Shown in pieces: positions 639 through 14,825 of a DNA stretch of 22,697 nucleotides. The stretch spans positions 1 through 22,697 of IMG/VR virus record IMGVR_UViG_3300045117_000396. The stretch is one strand, 5' to 3'. The notes under the pieces were generated by a model, which was not told the origin of the DNA, did not search any database, and worked only from the letters and a program-made list of their open reading frames with translations. The first letter of the stretch is position 1, and the number at the start of each line of letters is the position of its first letter. The stretch is from a virus. The position numbers were made by a program, and so were the translations under genes.

Positions 639-3287
639 ATGAGCGATCGCTACCAGTCAATTAGCTACCATCAGCAGTTGTGGCATGTTCCGGCCAACGC
701 CAATTTTTCGGCGATTGGCGATGATGTTGACGCCCTGTACACATCCCAATCAAGTCTGAACGCCTTAGTGACCAACTGGGCAGTGGTAGAAAACATTATG
801 CTGGCTATCGCTACGGCGCCCACCTATAGCGATGCTGACACTTTCACCTTGCCTGGAAACTGGACTGACTATTTTGGGGTTAATAAGTTGGTAGTAGGTT
901 ACTGTGGCACTGATGGCGTCAAGGCCTCGACGGTTTTGAGCAGTTCTTATGGTGCCGGCATCACTACCATCAACCTTAACGACGCTGTATTAACCGCCAA
1001 CCTGGAGCGGGTTAGTGTGGAGGCAGTGCGAGATGGACTTTGGCCGCATGGAACCGGGGTGGTTAATGCGTTGGATTATAAGCAGGCTGGGTACACCGGC
1101 CGAGAGACCCTGGAAGATGCCATTGCTGCCATCGGCGTCCTTAATCGTATCCTGACTGTTGCTCCAGACCCTGATGGCGATTGGGAAATCGACGATGATT
1201 TGGAATTTCCTCAGAATGTAACTCCCAAAATATTGCGGGGGGCTGTTCTTGAGGTAGCCGATACGAAGAGCTTAACCTTCAACGCTGCCATTGACGCCGG
1301 CCCATATCACTGGTTGACCCTCGTCGGTTCTGCGACCGTAACGATGGAAAATCAGGCGGAAGCCTGGCTAAACTGGCTTTGTGATGGTGGGATTGGCACC
1401 TCGGGTAATCCTTGGGCGTCGTTTGATGATACCGCTGGTATCAGTTCTCTTTTGGACGCCGGGGTTGGTAAGTTGCGGATGGTTGAAGGGTATTACTTGG
1501 TAGAACCGTTTTCAAAATCAAGCGTCAATAACTTCTGCCTGTCGGGGGCCGGACGGGGTAGGTCATATCTAACCTATACCGCTTCAACCGGGGATGTAAT
1601 AGACCTGGATTGTCTTGGAGTGTACCTGGATAATTTCTCCATCTTGGGGCCGGGCACTACGGGCGACGAAGTGGCGTTGAATTTCCAGACCCCCCCAGAC
1701 AGCGGCTACCACTATTTCGACAATTTAGGTGCTGACGACGTCGGTGGCAGCGTCATAACCACCAAGGCTTTCATCGTCCGCCTGGAGAACTCGGTATTAC
1801 ACAACAGCGGTGGCAACTTACTGCACTTCGTCAATTCCGGCGGATTCCTGTCGGTGGAAGGCTGCTACCTTACCACGGCGGGCACTCATGGCATTGAGAT
1901 GGGCGGCTCGTTGATCGAGGGCAAGGCTTCTCACACTGATGGCAGCCCCACCATCCACCTAATTAAGGCCAACTATAACTTTTCGGCGGCGGGCGCGAGC
2001 ATTGGCAACACAGTTTACAACTTGACCCAGAACGCCACCGGCACCATTTCGGGATTTCTTAACCACACCGGCACTAACGACCTGGTGGTTCATAGTGCCC
2101 TGTCCGGCGGCAAGTCGTGGGCGGTTGGGGATGTGTTCACCATTGCTGATGTAAGCGGAGGCCTTACTCATGTGTCGGTGTCCAATAGCAACATCGAAAG
2201 CTGCGAGTTATGGGGCATCTATTCGGCCAATAGTGGGGCTTACGTTCTCAACCTGGACCAGGTGCATTTTGAGTACAACGGCACCATCGAACCGGGTCTA
2301 GTCGGGGGCATTCTGGGCGATGTGCGAATCGGCACTTATACCAAGTCCATGACCGCCAGGGCGTGCCGCTTCGGTAGCAGCATCACCGGGACCGCCACTC
2401 ATATTGACGGCAGCCCCACCCTACACCTAATCAAGTCCGGGTACGACTTCGCTGCGGCTGGCGTCAAGGCCGGGCACAAGGTGTTCAACATTGTGGGGGG
2501 CGTGATCATTGCGACTGCCACTGTGTCGTCCGTTACCGACTATACCCCAGGCGGCAACGACATGGTGGTGCACGACGCCCTGACCGGTGGAAACTCCTGG
2601 GCCGTCGGCGAAACCTTCTACATCAGCGTGGGAGGGATCCCTATCTACGCCGCCGGTGCTGCCTATAATCACCTGGTGCTGGACTCCAACACGTTTAACG
2701 GTGGAGATCTTGACAACGTCATCGACACCGGCAGCGGCATCGGCTCTATAGCCTTCCTTGGGAACAACATATCCCCAAGGGGCGTTTCGTTCAACGAAAC
2801 AATGATCGATAACGGGGCCACGTCTACCCCACTAACATTTGTTAAGAATCTGCCGATAAGCTCGTCTGGCGATATCACGCCCAGGCATGTGCGGGCCACC
2901 GGGTCTATCGAACATGGCCTTGATAAGTTTAAGTCCTTTGCGGTTTACAAAGCTGTTCCGAATAATACCGCTCAGAACTTCATGACCATAACAGCCGCGT
3001 CAGCTTTGTCAGTAAGTGGCATCGCTACGGTGTCCGCCAAAAGTAATTCTGGTGAGCACGCGACGCATATCTACGCCTTTAAGGCAATGCAAGCCGTGTC
3101 CCCAGCGGTGCTCACCGAATTGGGTACTGGGTATAATAGTCTAGCAGCCATAACCCTGTCCGGCACGGTGGCCGGTAACACCCTAACACTGACGGCTACC
3201 ACAGATGCAAACTGGGCGGCCACGGCTGCCGTCACGGTCAGTGTGATTATTACGGCCCCAACCGGGATTACGATAGTTGAGGTATAA
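639..3287 (+). CDS. Tail spike-like protein with right-handed beta-helix type central region
   Basis: An 882-residue protein. The chosen ATG follows TAGGAG at a good distance; the frame is open further upstream, but no better start is seen. The N-terminal ~200 residues resemble a virion-attachment/connector part. The centre (roughly 260-720) has the short, Gly/Asn/Asp-rich strand-turn rungs of pectate-lyase-like beta-helices, as in phage tail spikes (for example runs such as LDNFSILGPG and VLDSNTFNGG). Two copies of an ~80-residue module interrupt the helix at about 429-505 and 585-664. The last ~130 residues form a separate Ser/Thr/Ala-rich beta domain, probably for trimerisation or receptor contact. 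No catalytic residues can be assigned by eye, so depolymerase activity is possible but unproven. The 71-residue gene 3290-3505 follows after 2 bases. Confidence 0.7.
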   Translation: MSDRYQSISYHQQLWHVPANANFSAIGDDVDALYTSQSSLNALVTNWAVVENIMLAIATAPTYSDADTFTLPGNWTDYFGVNKLVVGYCGTDGVKASTVLSSSYGAGITTINLNDAVLTANLERVSVEAVRDGLWPHGTGVVNALDYKQAGYTGRETLEDAIAAIGVLNRILTVAPDPDGDWEIDDDLEFPQNVTPKILRGAVLEVADTKSLTFNAAIDAGPYHWLTLVGSATVTMENQAEAWLNWLCDGGIGTSGNPWASFDDTAGISSLLDAGVGKLRMVEGYYLVEPFSKSSVNNFCLSGAGRGRSYLTYTASTGDVIDLDCLGVYLDNFSILGPGTTGDEVALNFQTPPDSGYHYFDNLGADDVGGSVITTKAFIVRLENSVLHNSGGNLLHFVNSGGFLSVEGCYLTTAGTHGIEMGGSLIEGKASHTDGSPTIHLIKANYNFSAAGASIGNTVYNLTQNATGTISGFLNHTGTNDLVVHSALSGGKSWAVGDVFTIADVSGGLTHVSVSNSNIESCELWGIYSANSGAYVLNLDQVHFEYNGTIEPGLVGGILGDVRIGTYTKSMTARACRFGSSITGTATHIDGSPTLHLIKSGYDFAAAGVKAGHKVFNIVGGVIIATATVSSVTDYTPGGNDMVVHDALTGGNSWAVGETFYISVGGIPIYAAGAAYNHLVLDSNTFNGGDLDNVIDTGSGIGSIAFLGNNISPRGVSFNETMIDNGATSTPLTFVKNLPISSSGDITPRHVRATGSIEHGLDKFKSFAVYKAVPNNTAQNFMTITAASALSVSGIATVSAKSNSGEHATHIYAFKAMQAVSPAVLTELGTGYNSLAAITLSGTVAGNTLTLTATTDANWAATAAVTVSVIITAPTGITIVEV
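1924..2155 (+). repeat. Internal module copy 1 in tail spike
   Basis: Encodes a module beginning ASHTDGSPTIHLIKANYNF and ending near SWAVGDVFTIAD. It is the first of two homologous insertions in the spike; key shared features are DGSP, HLIK, AAGxxxG, VxN, NDxVVH, ALxGGxSWAVG and the closing F-x-I. DNA identity is high over the first ~45 bases. Confidence 0.8.
2392..2632 (+). repeat. Internal module copy 2 in tail spike
   Basis: The second copy begins ATHIDGSPTLHLIKSGYDF and ends near SWAVGETFYIS. It has a few extra residues in its middle loop relative to copy 1. The pair is diverged, so the duplication is old or under diversifying selection. Similar modules inserted in phage beta-helix spikes are thought to form side domains; that role is inferred here. 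Confidence 0.8.
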
Positions 3288-3289
3288 AC

Positions 3290-3505
3290 ATGTTAGAGAG
3301 ACTTGTGCGTGATGTGGAATCCGGCAAGGCGGTTGTAAAGTCTGTCAAGAAAGATGGCGACTTGATAACCATAACGGTCGTTCGCGAGGAGACCTATGAG
3401 CTTTATGGGCTGGACGTGGACGCCAAAGTCGAAATACTGACGCAGCGGGCCGACCGAATTCGCAACTTTGTGTCGGCCCAGAAAGACGCCGCACGCTTAG
3501 GCTAG
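3290..3505 (+). CDS. Small protein following the tail spike
   Basis: 71 residues, not recognised. It starts 2 bases after the spike stop, with a GAGG sequence inside the end of the spike gene as ribosome site, so it is probably translated together with it. The protein is charged and predicted mixed alpha/beta: a beta-rich centre (DLITITVVREETYELYG) and a helical end (EILTQRADRIRNFVSAQKD). There are no cysteines, membrane segment or signal peptide. The position suggests a tail-fibre accessory or assembly role, which is inference only. Confidence 0.7.
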   Translation: MLERLVRDVESGKAVVKSVKKDGDLITITVVREETYELYGLDVDAKVEILTQRADRIRNFVSAQKDAARLG

Positions 3506-3515
3506 GAACGTATGG

Positions 3516-3914
3516 ATGCCACAGACACAGACCCCGCTCGGCTCCACCATGCAGGTGATGGGCTTCATGCTGGCGGCCCCGGTGCCAGAGCCGGATCGGT
3601 GCGAACTGATTCTGCGGGGCCTGGTAGAGCACGTTGGTATGAGAACCGGGGGACTGAAGGCACAGGTGTGGTTGTACCCGACTCCGGATGGTGGTGGGGG
3701 GCAGGGGGCGACGGTGGTACAGCCTCTGCTAGAGAGTTTTGCGGTCTTTACAGGCATAGATACCTGGCCGTGCATCGGCCACTGGTATCTGTTCTTGTGC
3801 ACCTGTCGGCCAGTGGCGATCGACTTTGTAAGTTCCTTCCTGACAGAGGAACTGGGGTTTGGGCTACTGGCCAGCGGCGAGTTTAGACTGTCTGAAGCTG
3901 AGAAGGAACCCTGA
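3516..3914 (+). CDS. SpeD-like (AdoMet decarboxylase family) protein, copy 1
   Basis: 132 residues; start chosen with TAGGAA 7 bases upstream. The layout matches small prokaryotic-type S-adenosylmethionine decarboxylases: an N-terminal strand and helix (MQVMGFMLAAPVPEPDRCE), a second strand (KAQVWLYPTP), a Gly-rich turn, then QPLLES, IDTWP, GHWYLFLCTC and a helix (VSSFLTEEL). In bacterial SpeD the core reads E-S-H-x-x-I-H-T-W-P followed by a cysteine; the Ser forms the pyruvoyl group. Here E73-S74 and Cys95/Cys97 are present, but the His of IHTW is Asp82, and the Ser lies 8 residues before it instead of 5. It is homologous to 5548-5958 at the other end of the small-gene block. Fold assignment is moderately secure; activity is doubtful or altered. 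Confidence 0.55.
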   Translation: MPQTQTPLGSTMQVMGFMLAAPVPEPDRCELILRGLVEHVGMRTGGLKAQVWLYPTPDGGGGQGATVVQPLLESFAVFTGIDTWPCIGHWYLFLCTCRPVAIDFVSSFLTEELGFGLLASGEFRLSEAEKEP

Positions 3915-3930
3915 CGGGGCTTTGGCGACT

Positions 3931-4047
3931 ATGGATGAGTTTAGAATATTTGCGGAGAGTCTTCTGCTAATTATTAGTACTGGATGGGCGGTATTTGGTC
4001 TATTGTGCTTAGTGGCCGGTTCTCTTATGAACCCGCCTCCTTGGTAA
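3931..4047 (+). CDS. Small single-pass membrane protein
   Basis: 38 residues with one hydrophobic helix (about residues 9-31, LLLIISTGWAVFGLLCLVAG) and a short polar N-terminus. The frame is open upstream to 3859 inside the previous gene, but the ATG here removes that overlap; an in-frame TTG at 3922 is an alternative. No ribosome site is strong, so expression may depend on the upstream gene. No function recognised; small phage membrane peptides may act in lysis timing or exclusion. Confidence 0.45.
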   Translation: MDEFRIFAESLLLIISTGWAVFGLLCLVAGSLMNPPPW

Positions 4048-6907: not shown

Positions 6908-7129
6908 ATGTGGCGGGAGATATTTTCTGAGGATAACGGGCGATTGTCGGCCATGCGGCTGTTTGCCGGGCTGATCATTTTTGTGGTTTTGGTCAACTGG
7001 ACCATGGTCTGCTGGCGCAACGGCAACCTGGCACCATTGGATTGGGGGGCGGTGATTGTGCTTCTGGGCGCCCTGGGAGGCAAGATCGCTCAGAAGTTCG
7101 CCGAGAATCGCCCCACGGAGCCATCATGA
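6908..7129 (+). CDS. Holin-like two-helix membrane protein
   Basis: 73 residues. The N-terminus (MWREIFSEDNGRLSAMR) and two hydrophobic helices (about 17-34 and 45-60, the second ending GALGGKIAQKFAEN) match a common class of small phage proteins located just before the spanins and taken to be holins. Holins make lesions in the inner membrane at lysis time. It overlaps the i-spanin start by ATGA. Assignment rests on topology and context, not on a conserved active site. Confidence 0.6.
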   Translation: MWREIFSEDNGRLSAMRLFAGLIIFVVLVNWTMVCWRNGNLAPLDWGAVIVLLGALGGKIAQKFAENRPTEPS

Positions 7130-7416
7130 TTGCCTGGCTGTTGACCACTACTTTGGGCCGGGGACTCGCTGGAGGGGTGCTGCTGCTCCTTTTGGCCGGC
7201 GGTGGCTGGTGGTATATTTCGCACCTGCGCGCCCAAAACCAGGCCCTGCAGGACCAAGTGCGGCAAAAAGAGCGGGCCGCGGAGATTTATCGCCATGACC
7301 GGGAGGTGGATCGTGATACGCAAACACAGCAGGATCGCCTGGATCGGGCTGGCCCTGACGAGCTCAATGCTGAGTTTGAGCGCCTGCGGCGCAAAGCCCG
7401 GGGCGGTCAGGACTGA
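7126..7416 (+). CDS. Rz: i-spanin (Rz-like inner-membrane spanin)
   Basis: 96 residues: an N-terminal membrane helix (about 10-30, LGRGLAGGVLLLLLAGGGWW) followed by a long charged periplasmic coiled coil (LRAQNQALQDQVRQKERAAE...), the standard architecture of Rz-type spanins. The start overlaps the holin-like stop. The o-spanin gene begins inside it in the +1 frame and runs past its end, the classical Rz/Rz1 overlap. Together they fuse inner and outer membranes in the last step of lysis, which implies a Gram-negative host. Confidence 0.85.
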   Translation: MIAWLLTTTLGRGLAGGVLLLLLAGGGWWYISHLRAQNQALQDQVRQKERAAEIYRHDREVDRDTQTQQDRLDRAGPDELNAEFERLRRKARGGQD

Positions 7417-7555
7417 ATTGCCGGTCCGCCCGATAATTTCTTCGGGTTTTGAAACCCTGTTGAAAAATGCCGGGCCAGAAACTGAACGAGCTGCCCTGCA
7501 GCACGAATGGGACTGGCATGGCTGGGCTGATAAAATGACCGAGCGCCTCCGATAA
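7313..7555 (+). CDS. Rz1: o-spanin (Rz1-like outer-membrane lipoprotein)
   Basis: 80 residues from a GTG start with GGAGG 5 bases upstream, lying in the +1 frame relative to the i-spanin gene. It has a basic N-terminus (MIRKHSRIAW), a hydrophobic stretch and a lipobox L22-S-A-C25, so the mature protein should be a lipoprotein attached through Cys25. The mature part is longer and less Pro-rich than lambda Rz1. Position, overlap and lipobox together make the call firm. Confidence 0.85.
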   Translation: MIRKHSRIAWIGLALTSSMLSLSACGAKPGAVRTELPVRPIISSGFETLLKNAGPETERAALQHEWDWHGWADKMTERLR

Positions 7556-7566
7556 TCCCACAAATA

Positions 7567-7629
7567 TTTGCCGCGAATTTGCCGCGATGACGCGGCAAAA
7601 CTGCCCCAAAATGAGCAATTTTGAGCAAT
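7567..7629. repeat. Direct and inverted repeats beside attP, candidate integrase arm sites
   Basis: TTTGCCGCGA occurs at 7567-7576 and 7578-7587; the second copy forms a perfect 9-bp inverted repeat with CGCGGCAAA at 7591-7599 around a 4-base loop. TGAGCAAT repeats at 7612-7619 and 7622-7629, one helical turn apart. Tyrosine integrases bind such short arm repeats beside the core site. The inverted repeat could instead end the lysis transcript, but it lacks a following T-run. Confidence 0.5.
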
Positions 7630-7639
7630 CGTGAAACCC

Positions 7640-7668
7640 TTGACGAATCCCCGCAAACGTAGTATCTA
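7640..7668 (+). promoter_or_regulatory. Promoter directed into the tRNA-Arg fragment
   Basis: TTGACG (7640-7645), 17-base spacer, TATCTA (7663-7668), with the tRNA 5' end 18 bases further on. Both hexamers match sigma-70 consensus at four or five of six positions. Placement just ahead of the tRNA half suggests the phage brings a promoter that would drive the tRNA after integration. Confidence 0.6.
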
Positions 7669-7686
7669 TAGGCATTATTCGCCTTT

Positions 7687-7815: not shown

Positions 7816-8007
7816 TCAGTGCGTAGTTGCATCCAGACAACTAATAAATTTAATCGCCCATTCGGGTACCGGGCTCTCAGCCTGCTCCCAGGCTTCAATG
7901 CGCCTGACGTTCACTCCCAACAGTTCAGCCAGGGCCTTTTGCGTGAGGCCCTGGCTCTGCCGGTATTGTTTCAGCCAATCAGATTTGTTCTGTAAGTCCG
8001 GCTTCAT
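7816..8007 (-). CDS. XRE-family helix-turn-helix regulator
   Basis: 63 residues from the ATG at 8007; a TTG at 8034 would add 9. It contains a full XRE/Cro-type HTH: WLKQYRQSQGLTQKALAELLG...VRRIEAWEQ, with the typical Gln-Lys-Ala-Leu-Ala and Arg-Arg-Ile-Glu-x-Trp-Glu. It overlaps the end of 7979-8374 by 29 bases, so the two are co-expressed. Single-domain XRE proteins as last gene of a small operon often autoregulate it, as in antitoxins. The palindrome at 9043-9057 in the operon promoter is a candidate target. Confidence 0.75.
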   Translation of the reverse strand: MKPDLQNKSDWLKQYRQSQGLTQKALAELLGVNVRRIEAWEQAESPVPEWAIKFISCLDATTH

Positions 8008-8374
8008 CGAATATTTGGCTGATTTGCATCTCAAACCGGCGCCGGATCCAATTAATTAAATTAGCCTGGCGTTCCTGGTATTGAGGATGAGGCGGAAAAC
8101 CCATGATATGCTCGGTCGGTTCATAGTAAGATAGCTGATCTTTGAGCTCCTCGATATTGTCGGCAACCCCAGCCCAATAATTATCCAATTCGCCCTCCCA
8201 AATTGTTTTATATTCGATGGCCAAAAGGTATTTTCCTTCTGCGGTTTGGAAGAGCCTGAGATTATGCCAGCGGTTCTGCTCCTTGCCGCTGGCCCATTTG
8301 CCGTCAGATTCGGCCAACAATTCTCCTTCAAAACGCAAGCCTGGTTGTCCGGTGCGCTTGACGATTTGTTCCAT
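7979..8374 (-). CDS. Conserved-looking hypothetical protein in attP-int cassette
   Basis: 131 residues, start preceded by AGGAGAGGAG. The pattern FEGELLAES...NRWHNLRLFQTAEGKYLLAIEYKTIWEGELD followed by a Pro-rich stretch and a basic helix (RQANLINWIRRRFEM) looks like a compact beta-sheet domain with a helical end. I recall similar bacterial proteins of unknown function but cannot name a family. No membrane segment or signal. It is sandwiched between the 9002 gene and the XRE regulator; a role as toxin, exclusion or other lysogeny-expressed protein is possible but unproven. Confidence 0.65.
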   Translation of the reverse strand: MEQIVKRTGQPGLRFEGELLAESDGKWASGKEQNRWHNLRLFQTAEGKYLLAIEYKTIWEGELDNYWAGVADNIEELKDQLSYYEPTEHIMGFPPHPQYQERQANLINWIRRRFEMQISQIFDEAGLTEQI

Positions 8375-9107: not shown

Positions 9108-10136
9108 TTATATTTTTAGTTTTCCGGCAGCTTCTCTTAGGTGGCTTTCGGAGAGATGGGCATAAATCTGAGTGGCTTTGATATCCTCGTGGCCCAGGAG
9201 GGCCTGGATGGTCTGCAGGGCGACGCCGGCCATGGCCAGGTGGGAGGCGAAGGTGTGGCGCAGATCATGGAGGCGGACGTGGGCGAGGCCGGCCCGCCGG
9301 GCGATTTTGGCGAACCGGTGGGAAGCGGCATCGGGCTGCCAGGGCCAGAGGCGCCCTACCTGGGGCAGGTCCCGGAGCAGTTCGGCCAGGGCTGAGGTGA
9401 TGGGGAGCAGCTTTTCCCGGCGGGCTTTAGTGCGGCGGACATGGATCACCTGGCGGGGCCAGTCGATATCCCGGGCCTGGAGCTGCAGGGCCTCAGAGCG
9501 GCGGCAGCCGGTGAGGACCAGGAAACGCCACAACCGGGCATAACGGGGATCGGTTTCGGCGGCCAGGAGGCGCTGGATGTCCTCCCGCTCCAGGTAGCGG
9601 GGGAGGTGGCGGTGGTCTTTGATCTGCTTGAGGCCCTGGCCGGGATTGCTCCTGAGATAGCCCCAGGCCACAGCCCGGGCGAAGGCGGCTTTGAGGTGGC
9701 GCAGATAGGTGTTCCGGGAAATAATGCTGACCGGCAGATCGGCCAGGAAGATTTCCAGGGTGCGCCGGTCGATCTGGGCGAGGCGGGCCCGGGCCCCCAG
9801 GACCGTCAGGAGATGACCTAGAGCGGTGCGGTTATTTTGCCAGGTGGAGCGGGCCTGGGTCTTGCGGGAGAATTCCAGATATTCCTCCGCAAAATCCGCC
9901 AGGTTTTTATCCGGGAGCCGGCCCTGCAGGGCGGCCAGGCGCCCGTCCAGGACGGCTTTTTTCAATTTGCGGTAAAGGGCCTGGGCCTGGGCGCGATCCC
10001 GGGTTTTCAGGGACACCCGCTTCTGGCGGGAAATCTCGGCGTACCAGATGCCGTTTCGATGGCGGAAGAGCCGCATGAGGAGATTCATGTTATGGGAGTC
10101 CAGTTTTTCTGTCAAGAGAAAACCTTGCCCAGCCAT
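9108..10136 (-). CDS. int: Tyrosine-type site-specific integrase
   Basis: 342 residues with a full tyrosine recombinase: N-terminal arm-binding/SAM-like domain (LADFAEEYLEFSRKTQARSTWQ), then catalytic R212 or R213 (LTGCRRSEAL), a probable Lys at 237, H290-x-x-R293 (LHDLRHTFASHLA), H316 (LLGHEDI) and nucleophile Y325 (ATQIYAHL). All catalytic positions are present. It should recombine attP at 7687-7728 with a host tRNA-Arg gene. The start is uncertain: the ATG at 10136 has a weak AAGG; ATGs at 10088 and 10076 are in frame. It is unusual that three genes separate it from attP. Its last bases are followed by an AT-rich gap. Confidence 0.93.
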   Translation of the reverse strand: MAGQGFLLTEKLDSHNMNLLMRLFRHRNGIWYAEISRQKRVSLKTRDRAQAQALYRKLKKAVLDGRLAALQGRLPDKNLADFAEEYLEFSRKTQARSTWQNNRTALGHLLTVLGARARLAQIDRRTLEIFLADLPVSIISRNTYLRHLKAAFARAVAWGYLRSNPGQGLKQIKDHRHLPRYLEREDIQRLLAAETDPRYARLWRFLVLTGCRRSEALQLQARDIDWPRQVIHVRRTKARREKLLPITSALAELLRDLPQVGRLWPWQPDAASHRFAKIARRAGLAHVRLHDLRHTFASHLAMAGVALQTIQALLGHEDIKATQIYAHLSESHLREAAGKLKI

Positions 10137-10258
10137 GCCTTTTTCTGGATTTCATGCGGAATATAAATCGGGTCAATCAAAATAGCTGATTTCACCAAGT
10201 CCTTATAGGTTTTTTTGCCTTTGCCGGTAATCTGAAAATTTCCGGCAGCCTTAATCAG
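10112..10258 (-). CDS. Possible small ORF with non-standard start, overlapping int
   Basis: A 48-codon frame (LIKAAGNFQITGKGKKTYKD...) lies just downstream of a perfect AAGGAGG (10276-10270) and ends 25 bases inside int. The only start-like codon is a CTG 11 bases after the ribosome site; no ATG, GTG or TTG is in frame. The amino acid composition looks protein-like. It may be a real gene with a CTG start, or a decayed gene that lost its start. Confidence 0.3.
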   Translation of the reverse strand: MIKAAGNFQITGKGKKTYKDLVKSAILIDPIYIPHEIQKKAWLGKVFS

Positions 10259-10282
10259 ACTGTGCCAAACCTCCTTTTGATT

Positions 10283-10501
10283 TTATTTTCGAGCTCGCGC
10301 CAGGAGCTCGTAAAATTGTAATTCCTGTTCGGGATTCGGGTCTGCCAGGCTGGCTAGGTCGATGCGCCAGGTGGGCTTGCGGGCGCCGGGGCGGCGTAGG
10401 TCCAGGGCCCGGACGCGGCCCTCCCGGATCATGGCCCGGAGGGTGTTCCGGCACACCTGCAGAACCCGGCAGGCCTGGGCGATGGTCAGGAAGGTCGTCA
10501 A
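10283..10501 (-). CDS. Excisionase-like small HTH protein
   Basis: 72 residues from a TTG start overlapping the preceding stop (TTGA), with GAGGGA just before. The domain TIAQACRVLQVCRNTLRAMIREGRVRALDLRRPGARKPTWRI is the winged-HTH type of helix_turn_helix_17/excisionase proteins: a helix pair, then a wing with basic residues. Lying directly upstream of int in the same transcript, it is the best candidate for the directionality factor. The longer ATG frame upstream lies on top of the zinc-finger gene and is not credible. Confidence 0.7.
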   Translation of the reverse strand: MTTFLTIAQACRVLQVCRNTLRAMIREGRVRALDLRRPGARKPTWRIDLASLADPNPEQELQFYELLARARK

Positions 10502-10710
10502 TCCCTCACCGTGTGCGGCTCGCAATGGCCACCGGGGCGAATGCATTTGCCAGAGGCAAATTTCAATGAGCGGTATTCCCGGCCGTATTCCAGCTCCCAG
10601 GGAGTGTTTTTCCGAACGGGATGAGGAATGCGGACGCCGGGTTGTCGGTTGGCCAGGCCGCGCCAATAAGGGCATGTATTACAATCCCGTGTGGCTTCGT
10701 TCCTATTCAT
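10498..10710 (-). CDS. Small CxxC...C...C zinc-finger-like protein
   Basis: 70 residues with C10-NT-C13-PYWRG, then C56 and C63 near the end (GKCIRPGGHC). The layout resembles that of 14822-15058, a family of short phage proteins with CxxCxxW/F at the start and a Gly-x-Cys-x-Arg stretch later. No good ribosome site is visible, so translation may be weak. It overlaps the excisionase-like gene by 4 bases. Confidence 0.6.
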   Translation of the reverse strand: MNRNEATRDCNTCPYWRGLANRQPGVRIPHPVRKNTPWELEYGREYRSLKFASGKCIRPGGHCEPHTVRD

Positions 10711-11865: not shown

Positions 11866-12034
11866 GGATTTGTTCCCGGTATTTAACTCGCTTTCTGGCG
11901 GCCATGAGCCAGTTGAGGCCGCAAGGGCACTTGTAAGAATGCCGCTGGCCCAGGCGGAGATCATCAGGGGCAAAGGAGATGCTGATTTCCTGGCCACAAC
12001 AGCAGGTGACAAGGGCTATCTGTTTTTTTCTCAT
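11837..12034 (-). CDS. Small zinc-ribbon-like protein
   Basis: 65 residues; GGGAGG lies 8 bases before the start. CCCG at 11-14 and CPCG at 37-40 form two cysteine knuckles around a beta hairpin (QEISISFAPDDLRLGQRHSYK), followed by a basic helix (LMAARKRVKYREQ). A zinc ribbon with a basic tail suggests nucleic-acid contact. Start overlaps the preceding stop (ATGA). Confidence 0.6.
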   Translation of the reverse strand: MRKKQIALVTCCCGQEISISFAPDDLRLGQRHSYKCPCGLNWLMAARKRVKYREQIHVENLPNHP

Positions 12035-12399
12035 AGCGGCAGCCTCCCGCAGCAGTGGCGGCGAATGAAAGACAATAGGATTTCCCCTTGGGGATTGGGC
12101 CGAGAGCCCAAACCCTGACAGGCCGGGCAGGGAAGTTCTTCCGCCTCTTGAGGTTCGATAAGCGGGGCCTCGCCGGATTTGCGGCGGTTCCAATATTCTG
12201 CCCAGGCAGGGCTATAAATTACCCCGGCGCCCCGGCAATCGGGGCAGGTTTCCTCCAAGCCAGGGGCGCCCGGATGATCTGCCGGATCCTCGTCTGGCGC
12301 TCCGTCCTGATGGCGGTGGCAATAATGGGTGTAGTAACCGGTATGGATATCGTACCGGCAGCCGCAATTTTCCGAAGCTATTCTTTCTTCAACGGCCAT
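12031..12399 (-). CDS. DnaJ-type CxxCxGxG zinc-finger protein
   Basis: 122 residues with C52-PD-C55-RGAG and C91-PA-C94-QGLG, the CxxCxGxG repeats of DnaJ cysteine-rich domains, and an N-terminal NCGCRYDIHTGYYTHYCHRH which may be another metal site. There is no J domain, so it is not a co-chaperone in the normal sense; such isolated domains occur as small phage proteins. Its ribosome site (GGGAGGGGG) lies in a palindrome at 12402-12419 that could block it. Long intergenic space to the nuclease gene contains two hairpins. Confidence 0.65.
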   Translation of the reverse strand: MAVEERIASENCGCRYDIHTGYYTHYCHRHQDGAPDEDPADHPGAPGLEETCPDCRGAGVIYSPAWAEYWNRRKSGEAPLIEPQEAEELPCPACQGLGSRPNPQGEILLSFIRRHCCGRLPL

Positions 12400-12979: not shown

Positions 12980-12986
12980 GGTGCCC

Positions 12987-13016
12987 TTAATACCACACGG
13001 TATCTTTATGTGTCAA
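12987..13016 (-). promoter_or_regulatory. Nuclease promoter, probably leaderless
   Basis: On the minus strand TTGACA (13016-13011), 18-base spacer, TATTAA (12992-12987), then 7 bases to the ATG at 12979. The expected transcription start falls on or next to the ATG. Operator 12990-13003 overlaps the -10 and spacer. Confidence 0.65.
12990..13003. promoter_or_regulatory. Phage operator 1
   Basis: ATACCACACGGTAT: perfect ATACC/GGTAT half sites around 4 bases. It overlaps the nuclease promoter. Confidence 0.7.
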
Positions 13017-13024
13017 GAAAATTT

Positions 13025-13038
13025 TTACCACACGGTAT
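13025..13038. promoter_or_regulatory. Phage operator 2
   Basis: TTACCACACGGTAT: one base differs from operator 1. It lies just upstream of the nuclease -35, 35 bases from operator 1. Confidence 0.7.
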
Positions 13039-13092
13039 TTTTTTCAAAAAATTATTAGCCCTGTCAGGACTGCAAATAAATAAAAGGGGTTA

Positions 13093-13500
13093 TCAGGAGA
13101 ATTTACGGCCACATTTAGCGCAGTAGGCGGACCGGGGGTGATTGAGGTGGGCGCAGGCGGAGCAGCGTTTGGCATCTGCGCCGTCATAGCGGGGGCTGAC
13201 GATGCTGGCGCTCAAGGGGTGGATGGGGCTGCCGCAGTGGCGGCATTTGTGGGCCTCCTGGCGCACGGCTTCGCCGCAATGGGGGCACTTGCGATATTCC
13301 TGGGAATAGCCGTGGCGGACGGCGCGTCTTTCATCCAACCGGGTGGCAGAAGGGAGGAAGGCAACAATAAGGCTAAAGGGCCCCAGCACCAGGCCCAGAA
13401 TAAACCAGGCGGCGGCGCTGCGGCCCTTGCCGGCGGCAATGAGACTGCCCGCCAGGCCAAAGAGTAAACAAAGAATCAGCACCAATAAAATCATGGGCAT
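13093..13500 (-). CDS. Membrane protein with two zinc ribbons
   Basis: 135 residues: two membrane helices (about 4-22 and 31-50) with a short basic loop (AAGKGRSAAAW), then two cytoplasmic zinc ribbons, C72-x2-C75...C86-x2-C89 and C113-x2-C116...C127-x2-C130, each CPHCG- or CAKCG-like. It is the second gene after the repressor-position gene 13504-14019 (3-base gap), so it is likely expressed in the lysogen. A superinfection-exclusion or membrane-sensing role is possible but unproven. Confidence 0.7.
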   Translation of the reverse strand: MPMILLVLILCLLFGLAGSLIAAGKGRSAAAWFILGLVLGPFSLIVAFLPSATRLDERRAVRHGYSQEYRKCPHCGEAVRQEAHKCRHCGSPIHPLSASIVSPRYDGADAKRCSACAHLNHPRSAYCAKCGRKFS

Positions 13501-13503
13501 TCT

Positions 13504-14019
13504 TTATTCAAGTTTTTCCAGGGGCATCAATTTTTCGATGAGGGTTTCATCCGGTTCAATTTTGTTGTTCAGGCAATGTTCGTAAATCCTGGCGATGACG
13601 TTGGCCCTCCAGAAGGGCGGTGATTTTTTAATGCGCCTGACCAGCCTGGCAGACACACGTTCCACCCCGTCAATGACCAGGAAGAGCAAATGTTTGTCAA
13701 GGGGCGGGGGCGGTTCGTGGTTAAATGAGGCCTCCAGGAAAGCCTGGGAAAAAAAGGCGCCATGTACCCCGCGGCCCATGACTTTCATGACCTTATAGAC
13801 CGTGCGGAATTGCGGTTCGGGGAATCTGCCTTCTTCGGCTTCTTTGGCATAGCGCTTCAAATCAGAAAGATTTTTGGTGGTGGGGAAACCGCATTCTGCC
13901 GCCAATTTAGTCAATTCTCCGGCAGTTTGTGACAGCCGCTCCAAGAAATCGCCGATCAACAGCAAGATTTCATTAACTTCCCGGGCGGCTTTGATCCCGG
14001 TGTGCTTTTTATAAGTCAT
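13504..14019 (-). CDS. Unrecognised protein in the repressor position
   Basis: 171 residues from ATG 14019. It is divergent from the Cro-like gene across five-operator-type DNA, exactly where a CI-type repressor is expected, but has no XRE domain of usual form and no LexA/CI peptidase tail (no Ala-Gly site or Ser-Lys dyad seen). The N-terminal half is helical (AREVNEILLLIGDFLERLSQTAGELTKLAAECG), possibly hiding an HTH at about 30-60; the C-terminal part (LLFLVIDGVERVSARLVRRIKK) is mixed. It may be a new repressor type or an accessory lysogeny protein. Its transcript too would start within ~7 bases of the ATG if the TATATT at 14038-14033 is the -10. Confidence 0.6.
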   Translation of the reverse strand: MTYKKHTGIKAAREVNEILLLIGDFLERLSQTAGELTKLAAECGFPTTKNLSDLKRYAKEAEEGRFPEPQFRTVYKVMKVMGRGVHGAFFSQAFLEASFNHEPPPPLDKHLLFLVIDGVERVSARLVRRIKKSPPFWRANVIARIYEHCLNNKIEPDETLIEKLMPLEKLE

Positions 14020-14020
14020 A

Positions 14021-14034
14021 ATACCGAAGGGTAA
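14021..14034. promoter_or_regulatory. Phage operator 3
   Basis: ATACCGAAGGGTAA: one half site perfect, the other off by one. It lies between the probable -10 and the ATG of the repressor-position gene, suggesting autorepression. Confidence 0.5.
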
Positions 14035-14045
14035 TATATTTTGCA

Positions 14046-14059
14046 ATACCGCATGGTAT
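14046..14059. promoter_or_regulatory. Phage operator 4
   Basis: ATACCGCATGGTAT: perfect half sites. It lies in the divergent region upstream of the Cro-side -35, 35 bases from operator 5, the same spacing as operators 1 and 2. Confidence 0.7.
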
Positions 14060-14068
14060 ATTTTTATC

Positions 14069-14097
14069 TTGACATGACAGACACCGTGTGGTACGAA
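14069..14097 (+). promoter_or_regulatory. Early rightward promoter (Cro side), probably leaderless
   Basis: TTGACA (14069-14074), 17-base spacer, TACGAA (14092-14097, weak -10), then 7 bases to the ATG at 14105. Spacer and -10 are covered by operator 5. The arrangement copies that of the nuclease promoter. Confidence 0.55.
14081..14094. promoter_or_regulatory. Phage operator 5
   Basis: ACACCGTGTGGTAC: matches the consensus with one change in each outer half. It covers the spacer and -10 of the early promoter. Confidence 0.65.
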
Positions 14098-14104
14098 GTG
14101 CGCC

Positions 14105-14374
14105 ATGACTCTGAAAAAATTTATCGCCAATCAAGATCTGAAACCTACCGCCTGGGCCGAGCAGCATGGCTTTCCGGGACCTGTAATAACCCGATTCCTG
14201 AAGGGGACCCGGGGATTGTCATTGGAAACTGCCGTTAAGATTTTTCGTATTACTGAAGGGACGGTGCCCCTAAGCCATCTTTGCCCGGCGTTGGCGCATG
14301 TATGTCAAAACTGCCTTGATAAAAATAATAACGTACAAATCAGAGACGACAATCCAGAAATAATTCATCAATAA
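14105..14374 (+). CDS. cro: Cro-like HTH regulator
   Basis: 89 residues with an N-terminal HTH: KKFIANQDLKPTAWAEQHGFPGPVITRFLKGTRGLSLETAVKIFRITEG, in which the second helix (VITRFLKG) is the recognition helix and Gly-Leu-Ser-Leu-Glu-Thr-Ala is typical of XRE/Cro domains. First gene of the rightward early operon, divergent from 13504-14019 over the operators. No ribosome site precedes the start and the promoter places the 5' end at the ATG, so a leaderless mRNA is likely. It is expected to bind the 14-bp operators and favour lytic growth. Confidence 0.75.
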   Translation: MTLKKFIANQDLKPTAWAEQHGFPGPVITRFLKGTRGLSLETAVKIFRITEGTVPLSHLCPALAHVCQNCLDKNNNVQIRDDNPEIIHQ

Positions 14375-14390: not shown

Positions 14391-14420
14391 ACTGGACAAA
14401 AATCCGGTTTTTTGTCCAGT
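14391..14420. terminator. Long inverted repeat between Cro-like and CII-like genes
   Basis: ACTGGACAAAAA (14391-14402) pairs perfectly with TTTTTGTCCAGT (14409-14420) around a 6-base loop: a 12-bp stem without trailing T-run. The place corresponds to tR1 of lambda. It could be a terminator, antiterminator target or regulator site. Confidence 0.45.
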
Positions 14421-14450
14421 GGCCTGTCCGGAAAATTTTTAAGGAAATTT

Positions 14451-14825
14451 ATGGACGAATTCTGGGATTTTCCTGAAGAGGCGGCGGCGCAGCTCGTGGC
14501 CGAAACTCTGGCGGGAGTGGCCACGGCGAACGTGGCGGCGCACTTGGGCAAAACCGATTCTCTCCTCCATAAGTGGCGGGAACCCACCGCCCCGCAATTT
14601 CCCAACCTGATTCAATTCATTCAAATCATTCGCTACACCGGCAATGTCGATGGCGTGCGCCTGTTGGCCGAGGCCTGCGGGTTCGTGTGCCTGGCCCGGG
14701 AGGGGACGGCGCCGGAATTGTTGCGGGGGTTGGCGGAGGCGTTGGCCAATCCGCCGAAATATAAACGGCCCCGGGGCAAACGGGTGTTTCGCCTGCCGCT
14801 GTTCCGTGACCAGGAGAATCGATGA
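14451..14825 (+). CDS. CII-like phage regulatory protein
   Basis: 124 residues, AAGGAA upstream of the chosen ATG. LAGVATANVAAHLGKTDSLLHKWRE is an HTH, followed by PNLIQFIQIIRYTGNVDGVRLLAEACGF, a pattern I associate with phage CII/CP76-type regulators (Thr-Gly-x-x-x-x-x-x-Leu-Ala-x-x-x-Gly). The C-terminus is basic (KYKRPRGKRVF). Second in the early operon, where CII sits in lambda. It probably controls the lysis-lysogeny decision, though its target is not visible here. Confidence 0.65.
   Translation: MDEFWDFPEEAAAQLVAETLAGVATANVAAHLGKTDSLLHKWREPTAPQFPNLIQFIQIIRYTGNVDGVRLLAEACGFVCLAREGTAPELLRGLAEALANPPKYKRPRGKRVFRLPLFRDQENR

Follow-up and report, generated by a model that had tools for sequence, protein, structure and literature searches.

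A putative lambda-type immunity region in an uncultivated phage, with a nuclease gene behind the leftward early promoter

In the record of phage lambda, the immunity region and its neighbours are arranged in the order N, OL1-3, rexB, rexA, cI, OR3-1, cro and cII. In switches of this kind, the repressor and Cro normally act on common operators, as established for lambda. Extracellular DNases are encoded by prophages of S. pyogenes, where their expression need not depend on induction, and direct control of cargo genes by a phage repressor is also a known pattern (PMC3629212). SNIPE, a membrane nuclease of the GIY-YIG type that faces the cytoplasm, cuts phage DNA during injection (PMC13190303). 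A literature search for an SNase acting in phage exclusion or placed under pL returned no papers.

The DNA described here, referred to as the window, is the whole stretch of 22,697 nucleotides of the IMG/VR record IMGVR_UViG_3300045117_000396. It probably contains the immunity region of a lambda-type temperate phage, in which a nuclease gene belongs to the pL operon and is placed under the OL/OR switch. From left to right the order is int (-), an excisionase-like gene (-), small genes (-), an Anti-TRAP-like zinc protein gene (-), the SNase gene (-), pL with OL, a weak possible terminator, a zinc-ribbon membrane gene (-), the gene in repressor position (-), OR with pR, cro (+), a CII-like gene (+), small genes (+), primase (+) and terminase (+), the last being named from its own sequence and the synteny of relatives and not by a family search. 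The coordinates are detailed in Table 1.

Table 1. Operators, promoters and genes of the putative switch and of the leftward block; sites are assigned to OL and OR according to their best reading.
Feature	Position	Strand	Sequence or family match	Remarks
Operator, OL	12990..13003		ATACCACACGGTAT	0 mismatches; covers spacer and -10 of pL
Operator, OL	13025..13038		TTACCACACGGTAT	1 mismatch; upstream of pL -35
Operator, OR, repressor-gene-proximal	14021..14034		ATACCGAAGGGTAA	1 mismatch; covers spacer and -10 of candidate repressor promoter
Operator, OR, middle	14046..14059		ATACCGCATGGTAT	0 mismatches; upstream of -35 of pR and of candidate pRM
Operator, OR, cro-proximal	14081..14094		ACACCGTGTGGTAC	2 mismatches; covers spacer and -10 of pR
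pL	12987..13016	-	TTGACA (13016-13011), 18-base spacer, TATTAA (12992-12987)	nuclease ATG 7 bases downstream
Candidate pRM	14018..14046	-	TTGCAA-17-TATTAT	-10 overlaps ATG at 14019
pR	14069..14097	+	TTGACA-17-TACGAA	ATG of Cro-like gene 7 bases downstream
Tyrosine integrase	9108-10136	-	family matches	far end of leftward block (9108..10675)
Excisionase-like HTH	10283-10675	-	family matches	far end of leftward block
Anti-TRAP/DnaJ-type zinc protein	12031..12399	-	PF15777 E=9.5e-12; phrog_6060 E=1.7e-4	next leftward gene after the nuclease
SNase/thermonuclease homologue, 161 aa	12494..12979	-	PF00565 E=1.1e-24, 87.4 bits (cut-off 21)	
Possible repressor-operon terminator	13057..13071	-	AGTCCTGACAGGGCT then AATAATTTTT	weak
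Membrane protein with double zinc ribbon	13093..13500	-	DZR, Zn_ribbon_3	rexA/rexB position
Gene in repressor (cI) position, 171 aa	13504..14019	-		assigned by position; start codon uncertain
Cro-like HTH protein, 89 aa	14105..14374	+	phrog_2339 HTH E=0.005	
CII-like regulator	14412..14825	+	phrog_101 E=1.8e-6; Phage_CP76 E=0.0012, under its cut-off	after cro

Operators and promoters

The initial annotation had listed five copies of ATACC-N4-GGTAT in this region. All five sites were confirmed at their positions (12990, 13025, 14021, 14046 and 14081), and with a symmetric matrix built from them the same five rank 1 to 5 among all positions of the 22.7-kb record; the full motif is perfect in two of them only, at 12990 and 14046. 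When each site was left out of the matrix in turn, it still ranked first or second, rank 2 being that of the 14081 site. Three of the sites lie between the repressor-position gene and cro (14021-14094) and two at pL (12987-13038). In these two intergenic gaps, of 113 and 85 bases, four sites are found at up to one mismatch and five at up to two, while the maximum in 20,000 Markov shuffles of both gaps was two and three sites, respectively. Over the whole window, 13 sites at up to two mismatches compare with 5.95 expected, a number as high being reached in none of 100 shuffles. Chance palindromes in AT-rich intergenic DNA would agree with the three imperfect sites and with a two-mismatch background of about six per window, but the shuffles, the leave-one-out ranks, the geometry common to both promoters and the occurrence of the motif in the otherwise unrelated phage L104 (see below) speak against this explanation, whose probability is negligible. 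The five sites are best read as the OR (three sites) and the OL (two sites) of a lambda-type immunity region.

The 35-base spacing ascribed to the pairs at pL and pR is exact in both. Read outwards, pR is ATACCGCATGGTAT-21-ACACCGTGTGGTAC and pL is ATACCGTGTGGTAA-21-ATACCGTGTGGTAT, and in both cassettes the gene-proximal site lies over the spacer and the start of the -10, with the other site upstream of the -35. An equal placement relative to TTGACA, also proposed at first, does not hold, since this hexamer is one base out of register between pR (spacer 17) and pL (spacer 18); instead, the distances from the proximal site to the ATG and from the -10 to the ATG (7 bases) are identical. Aligned without gaps, the two cassettes share 41 of 62 positions, and no other stretch of the window matches the pR cassette at more than 31/62. 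A -10-to-ATG distance of exactly 7 bases suggests that the cro and nuclease mRNAs would be near-leaderless. With the same operator and the same geometry at both promoters, one regulator should control the nuclease and the early lytic genes together, as had been supposed; that supposition stands at the level of the DNA, and the link is not a special one to an outlying gene but the OL/pL half of the switch.

The third OR site (14021) covers in the same way a promoter candidate from which the leftward repressor-position gene could be read. As the -10 of this promoter overlaps the ATG at 14019, either the start codon or the promoter is uncertain: the gene may start further downstream, or it may be read from elsewhere, for instance from a CII-dependent promoter. 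At the start of the integrase frame, the sequence TTGACA-17-TAACAT was also observed (10087-10115, -), and the integrase may have an internal start near 10088 with its own promoter.

Genes of the switch and of the leftward block

The first gene on the predicted rightward transcript encodes a Cro-like HTH protein. Its product matched by tblastn a Cro-like protein of Paracoccus phage Pkon1 (E=7e-4) and is 37% identical over 46 aa to the Cro of L104, a protein that matches Pfam HTH_3 at 1e-5; the run PVITRFL is common to both. Relatives of the Cro-like protein were also sought by a pattern scan, and none was confirmed. The product of the repressor-position gene is a candidate repressor by its position. 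No Pfam or PHROG match and no recognisable HTH/DNA-binding or peptidase domain (peptidase S24 included) was detected in it, no relatives were found in viral contigs, genome contigs, phage records, eight related or motif-sharing records or the PDB, and its single-sequence fold is unreliable (pLDDT 47). With neither peptidase S24 nor any other domain recognised in 13504-14019, SOS-type induction through a RecA-cleavable repressor cannot be assumed.

A relative of the zinc-ribbon membrane protein, about 51% identical, is encoded next to the repressor in L012, and another is present in L099. Such a gene follows the repressor gene directly in these three phages (window 13093-13500, L012 4462-4806, L099 4950-5234), which is the rex position of lambda. 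The possible terminator behind it in the window folds no better than shuffles. At 7816-8374 (-) in the window, a small HTH protein gene overlaps an upstream 131-aa gene without family matches, in a toxin-antitoxin-like or similar pair arrangement.

The active-site motifs of the nuclease (DGDT, RLAGIDAPE and YGR) are kept, and all three, the second as the pattern RL..ID.PE, aligned with solved structures of S. aureus thermonuclease. The N-terminus, MNSLKKLFPIFLVLVLASMALA/ASPEF, has a basic start, a hydrophobic stretch at 7-22 and A-L-A/A at 20-23, from which export through a putative Sec signal peptide is predicted. GC-rich hairpins occupy the 94-base gap directly after the gene (fold -49.4 kcal/mol, z -1.26), where they might cause termination or pausing of transcription. 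The gaps between the leftward genes measure 94, 168, 225 and 194 bases; in view of these and of the strong hairpin after the nuclease, a single transcript reaching int is only inferred. The second gene behind pL (12031-12399, -) is weakly similar to a Q-like antitermination family and is a candidate antiterminator.

Related phages and other phage nucleases

Relatives of the primase (59-66% identical) were found in five viral contigs and one deltaproteobacterial MAG, together with fragment L011, identical to this phage. Several of the related records are fragmentary and break off close to the immunity region, which three relatives do reach (L012, L093 and L094; primases 59-64% identical). They resemble the window in their terminase and CII-like genes and in having outward pL and pR with common operators on both sides of a leftward two-gene repressor operon, but they differ from it in their operator sequences and repressors, in the absence of an SNase and in start codons that do not follow the -10 directly. 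In L012, whose repressor is of the HTH_3 type, the repressor and zinc-ribbon genes are flanked by pL and pR, which together make up an inverted repeat of 36 nt with one mismatch (97% complementary). In L093 and L094, both promoters share AGAATAATACACATAT over the -10 and flank the repressor-position gene and a second, exported-looking gene. Differing operators and repressors within a conserved layout are as expected of immunity types. No SNase was found in any of the nine related or motif-sharing records searched. Since pL occupies the same position in relatives that do not have the nuclease, the promoter position is group-wide and the nuclease is cargo that now stands behind pL; it appears to be an accessory gene at the head of the leftward early operon. 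Two further features were observed in L012: a gene of about ten 45-bp tandem repeats (7067-7684; 15-residue units, EANKEKVAE...) and a gene with a cluster of 10-bp GCCTTGCC-type repeats on each side, the two clusters being separated by about 750 bases (2942-3948).

Eight stretches of viral contigs were returned by a scan for TACC-N4-GGTA sites paired around TTGACA. One is L104, where the perfect form of TACC-N4-GGTA occurs just three times in 11 kb, once at pR and twice at pL. It is like the window in having the motif at pR and pL at the same place over the -10, in the PVITRFL run of Cro and in a cro ATG 6 bases after the -10; it is unlike the window in its RNase_T/DnaQ-type exonuclease gene between repressor and pL, its unrelated leftward genes and its one full OR site. 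By comparison only, L104 would link the TACC-N4-GGTA motif to Cro proteins of the PVITRFL kind. The operator motif was not found in phages with more distant Cro-like proteins (Pkon1 and AbIPP1). Of the other stretches from the scan, L105 and L106 were discarded for looking like repeats; L101 and L107 adjoin apparent structural genes. In L102 (454-501) and L108 (1023-1070), pairs of TTACCTTCTGGTAT lie 34 bases apart around TTGACA, ahead of a zinc/HTH-like gene, in the same promoter design.

SNase genes beside the repressor-position gene, or one gene away from it, were also observed in four unrelated temperate phages or contigs (L112 4920-5639, L113 4959-5381, L111 4791-5372 and L007 485-928), most of them with an N-terminal hydrophobic segment; the strand is that of the repressor-position gene in three and the two genes face each other in L007. 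This small sample is suggestive of a recurring association. In Moraxella phage Mcat8, Curvibacter phage TJ1 and Microcystis phage Mae-JY22, as in the window, an SNase whose N-terminus includes a hydrophobic segment is encoded close to the repressor-position gene, on the same strand. In these three phages, a comparison of the repressor region with the sequence ahead of the SNase gene, or ahead of the gene that precedes it, detected no common 9-mers.

Control and possible use of the nuclease

In the proposed model, OR (14021, 14046 and 14081) lies between the repressor-position gene and cro, and OL (13025 and 12990), beyond the leftward repressor operon, would control pL. The repressor, the Cro-like protein or both would recognise one 14-bp palindrome in all three promoters, pR, pL and that of the repressor. 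Both pL and pR would be off in the lysogen and would fire together after induction or infection, with a pL transcript encoding the exported SNase first, then the zinc protein, the small genes, the excisionase-like gene and the integrase. The nuclease is thus predicted to be silent in the lysogen and switched on early after induction or infection. The model is supported by the clear excess of sites over chance and their restriction to these promoters, together with the matching cassettes and the layout of the relatives. Against it stand a repressor-position protein with no HTH or homologue, which makes the repressor a candidate, an OL of two sites, spacings of 35 and 25 bases unlike those of lambda and a candidate repressor promoter that overlaps the annotated repressor ATG.

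The nuclease could instead be self-standing cargo, with its own short transcript under a phage operator, and not the head of the pL operon. The hairpins behind it could end a one-gene transcript, and the gene is missing from relatives; however, in relatives a pL with the same operator as pR stands at exactly this map position without the nuclease, so that the promoter is older than the cargo, and same-strand genes run on leftward to int. We regard this alternative as somewhat unlikely. It is unlikely, too, that only the Cro-like protein acts at the nuclease operators, for late lytic shut-off, with pL unrepressed and the nuclease made in the lysogen. A recognisable HTH is present in the Cro-like product only, and the exported SNase of Mcat8 suggests expression in a lysogen, but repressor and Cro normally have operators in common, the inner OR site falls within the candidate promoter of the repressor and the Mcat8 gene belongs to the repressor operon and is not behind pL.

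As to the use of the enzyme, the initial annotation coupled a secreted nuclease with induction and named scavenging, biofilm or competitor DNA as possible uses. The co-regulation geometry, the signal-peptide-like N-terminus and the intact active-site motifs agree with this proposal, and extracellular DNases of S. pyogenes prophages are known, with an expression not necessarily dependent on induction (PMC3629212). The sequence itself gives no indication of any of these uses, and blocking DNA entry or clearing DNA at lysis would fit equally; the proposal is given a low probability. Under the lambda-type model, our tentative guess is that the enzyme is exported early in the lytic cycle and cuts DNA that is outside the cytoplasm, for example DNA entering from competing phages. 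It is improbable, in a narrower form of this guess, that the exported DNase, with its promoter copying the geometry of that of cro, destroys incoming DNA of competitor phages before it reaches the cytoplasm, as an exclusion that would operate in the lytic cycle and not in the lysogen, with a timing opposite to that of phages that seemingly keep such nucleases in the repressor operon. The observations do not discriminate among the cutting of incoming DNA, the clearing of DNA at lysis, nutrient release and no selected role.

If binding and export hold, the enzyme would be produced only on exit from lysogeny or after a new infection, and this predicted timing separates uses in the lytic cycle from benefits to the lysogen. 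An exported nuclease would here be placed under direct lytic control. The same kind of enzyme is found near repressor-position genes in several unrelated temperate phages, where its control seems to differ, and this allows a clean comparison. In Mcat8, unlike in the window, the SNase starts 14 bases behind the repressor-position gene on the same strand, within the repressor operon and not behind pL, and this suggests expression with the repressor in the lysogen, the opposite timing to that predicted for the window.

The phage lineage to which the window belongs is uncultivated, and each of its relatives carries an operator and a repressor of its own; the window presents a putative two-operator switch of the lambda type. 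In it, the repressor-position gene and cro are divergent, with several copies of one operator between them, and the same operator is present at a second, leftward promoter. Lambda and the window are alike in gene order and directions, in operators common to the two outward promoters and the repressor promoter, in an extra gene behind the repressor, in a CII-like gene after cro and in the position of xis/int on the leftward side. The window differs from lambda in its two OL sites instead of three, in 14-bp TACC-N4-GGTA palindromes 35 and 25 bases apart (17-bp sites 20-24 apart in lambda) and in a repressor-position protein without detected similarity to any repressor. No N-type antiterminator was detected as first gene behind pL, where the predicted exported SNase is followed by the Anti-TRAP-like gene as second. 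The design of the switch is ordinary; the enzyme at the head of its leftward operon is unusual.
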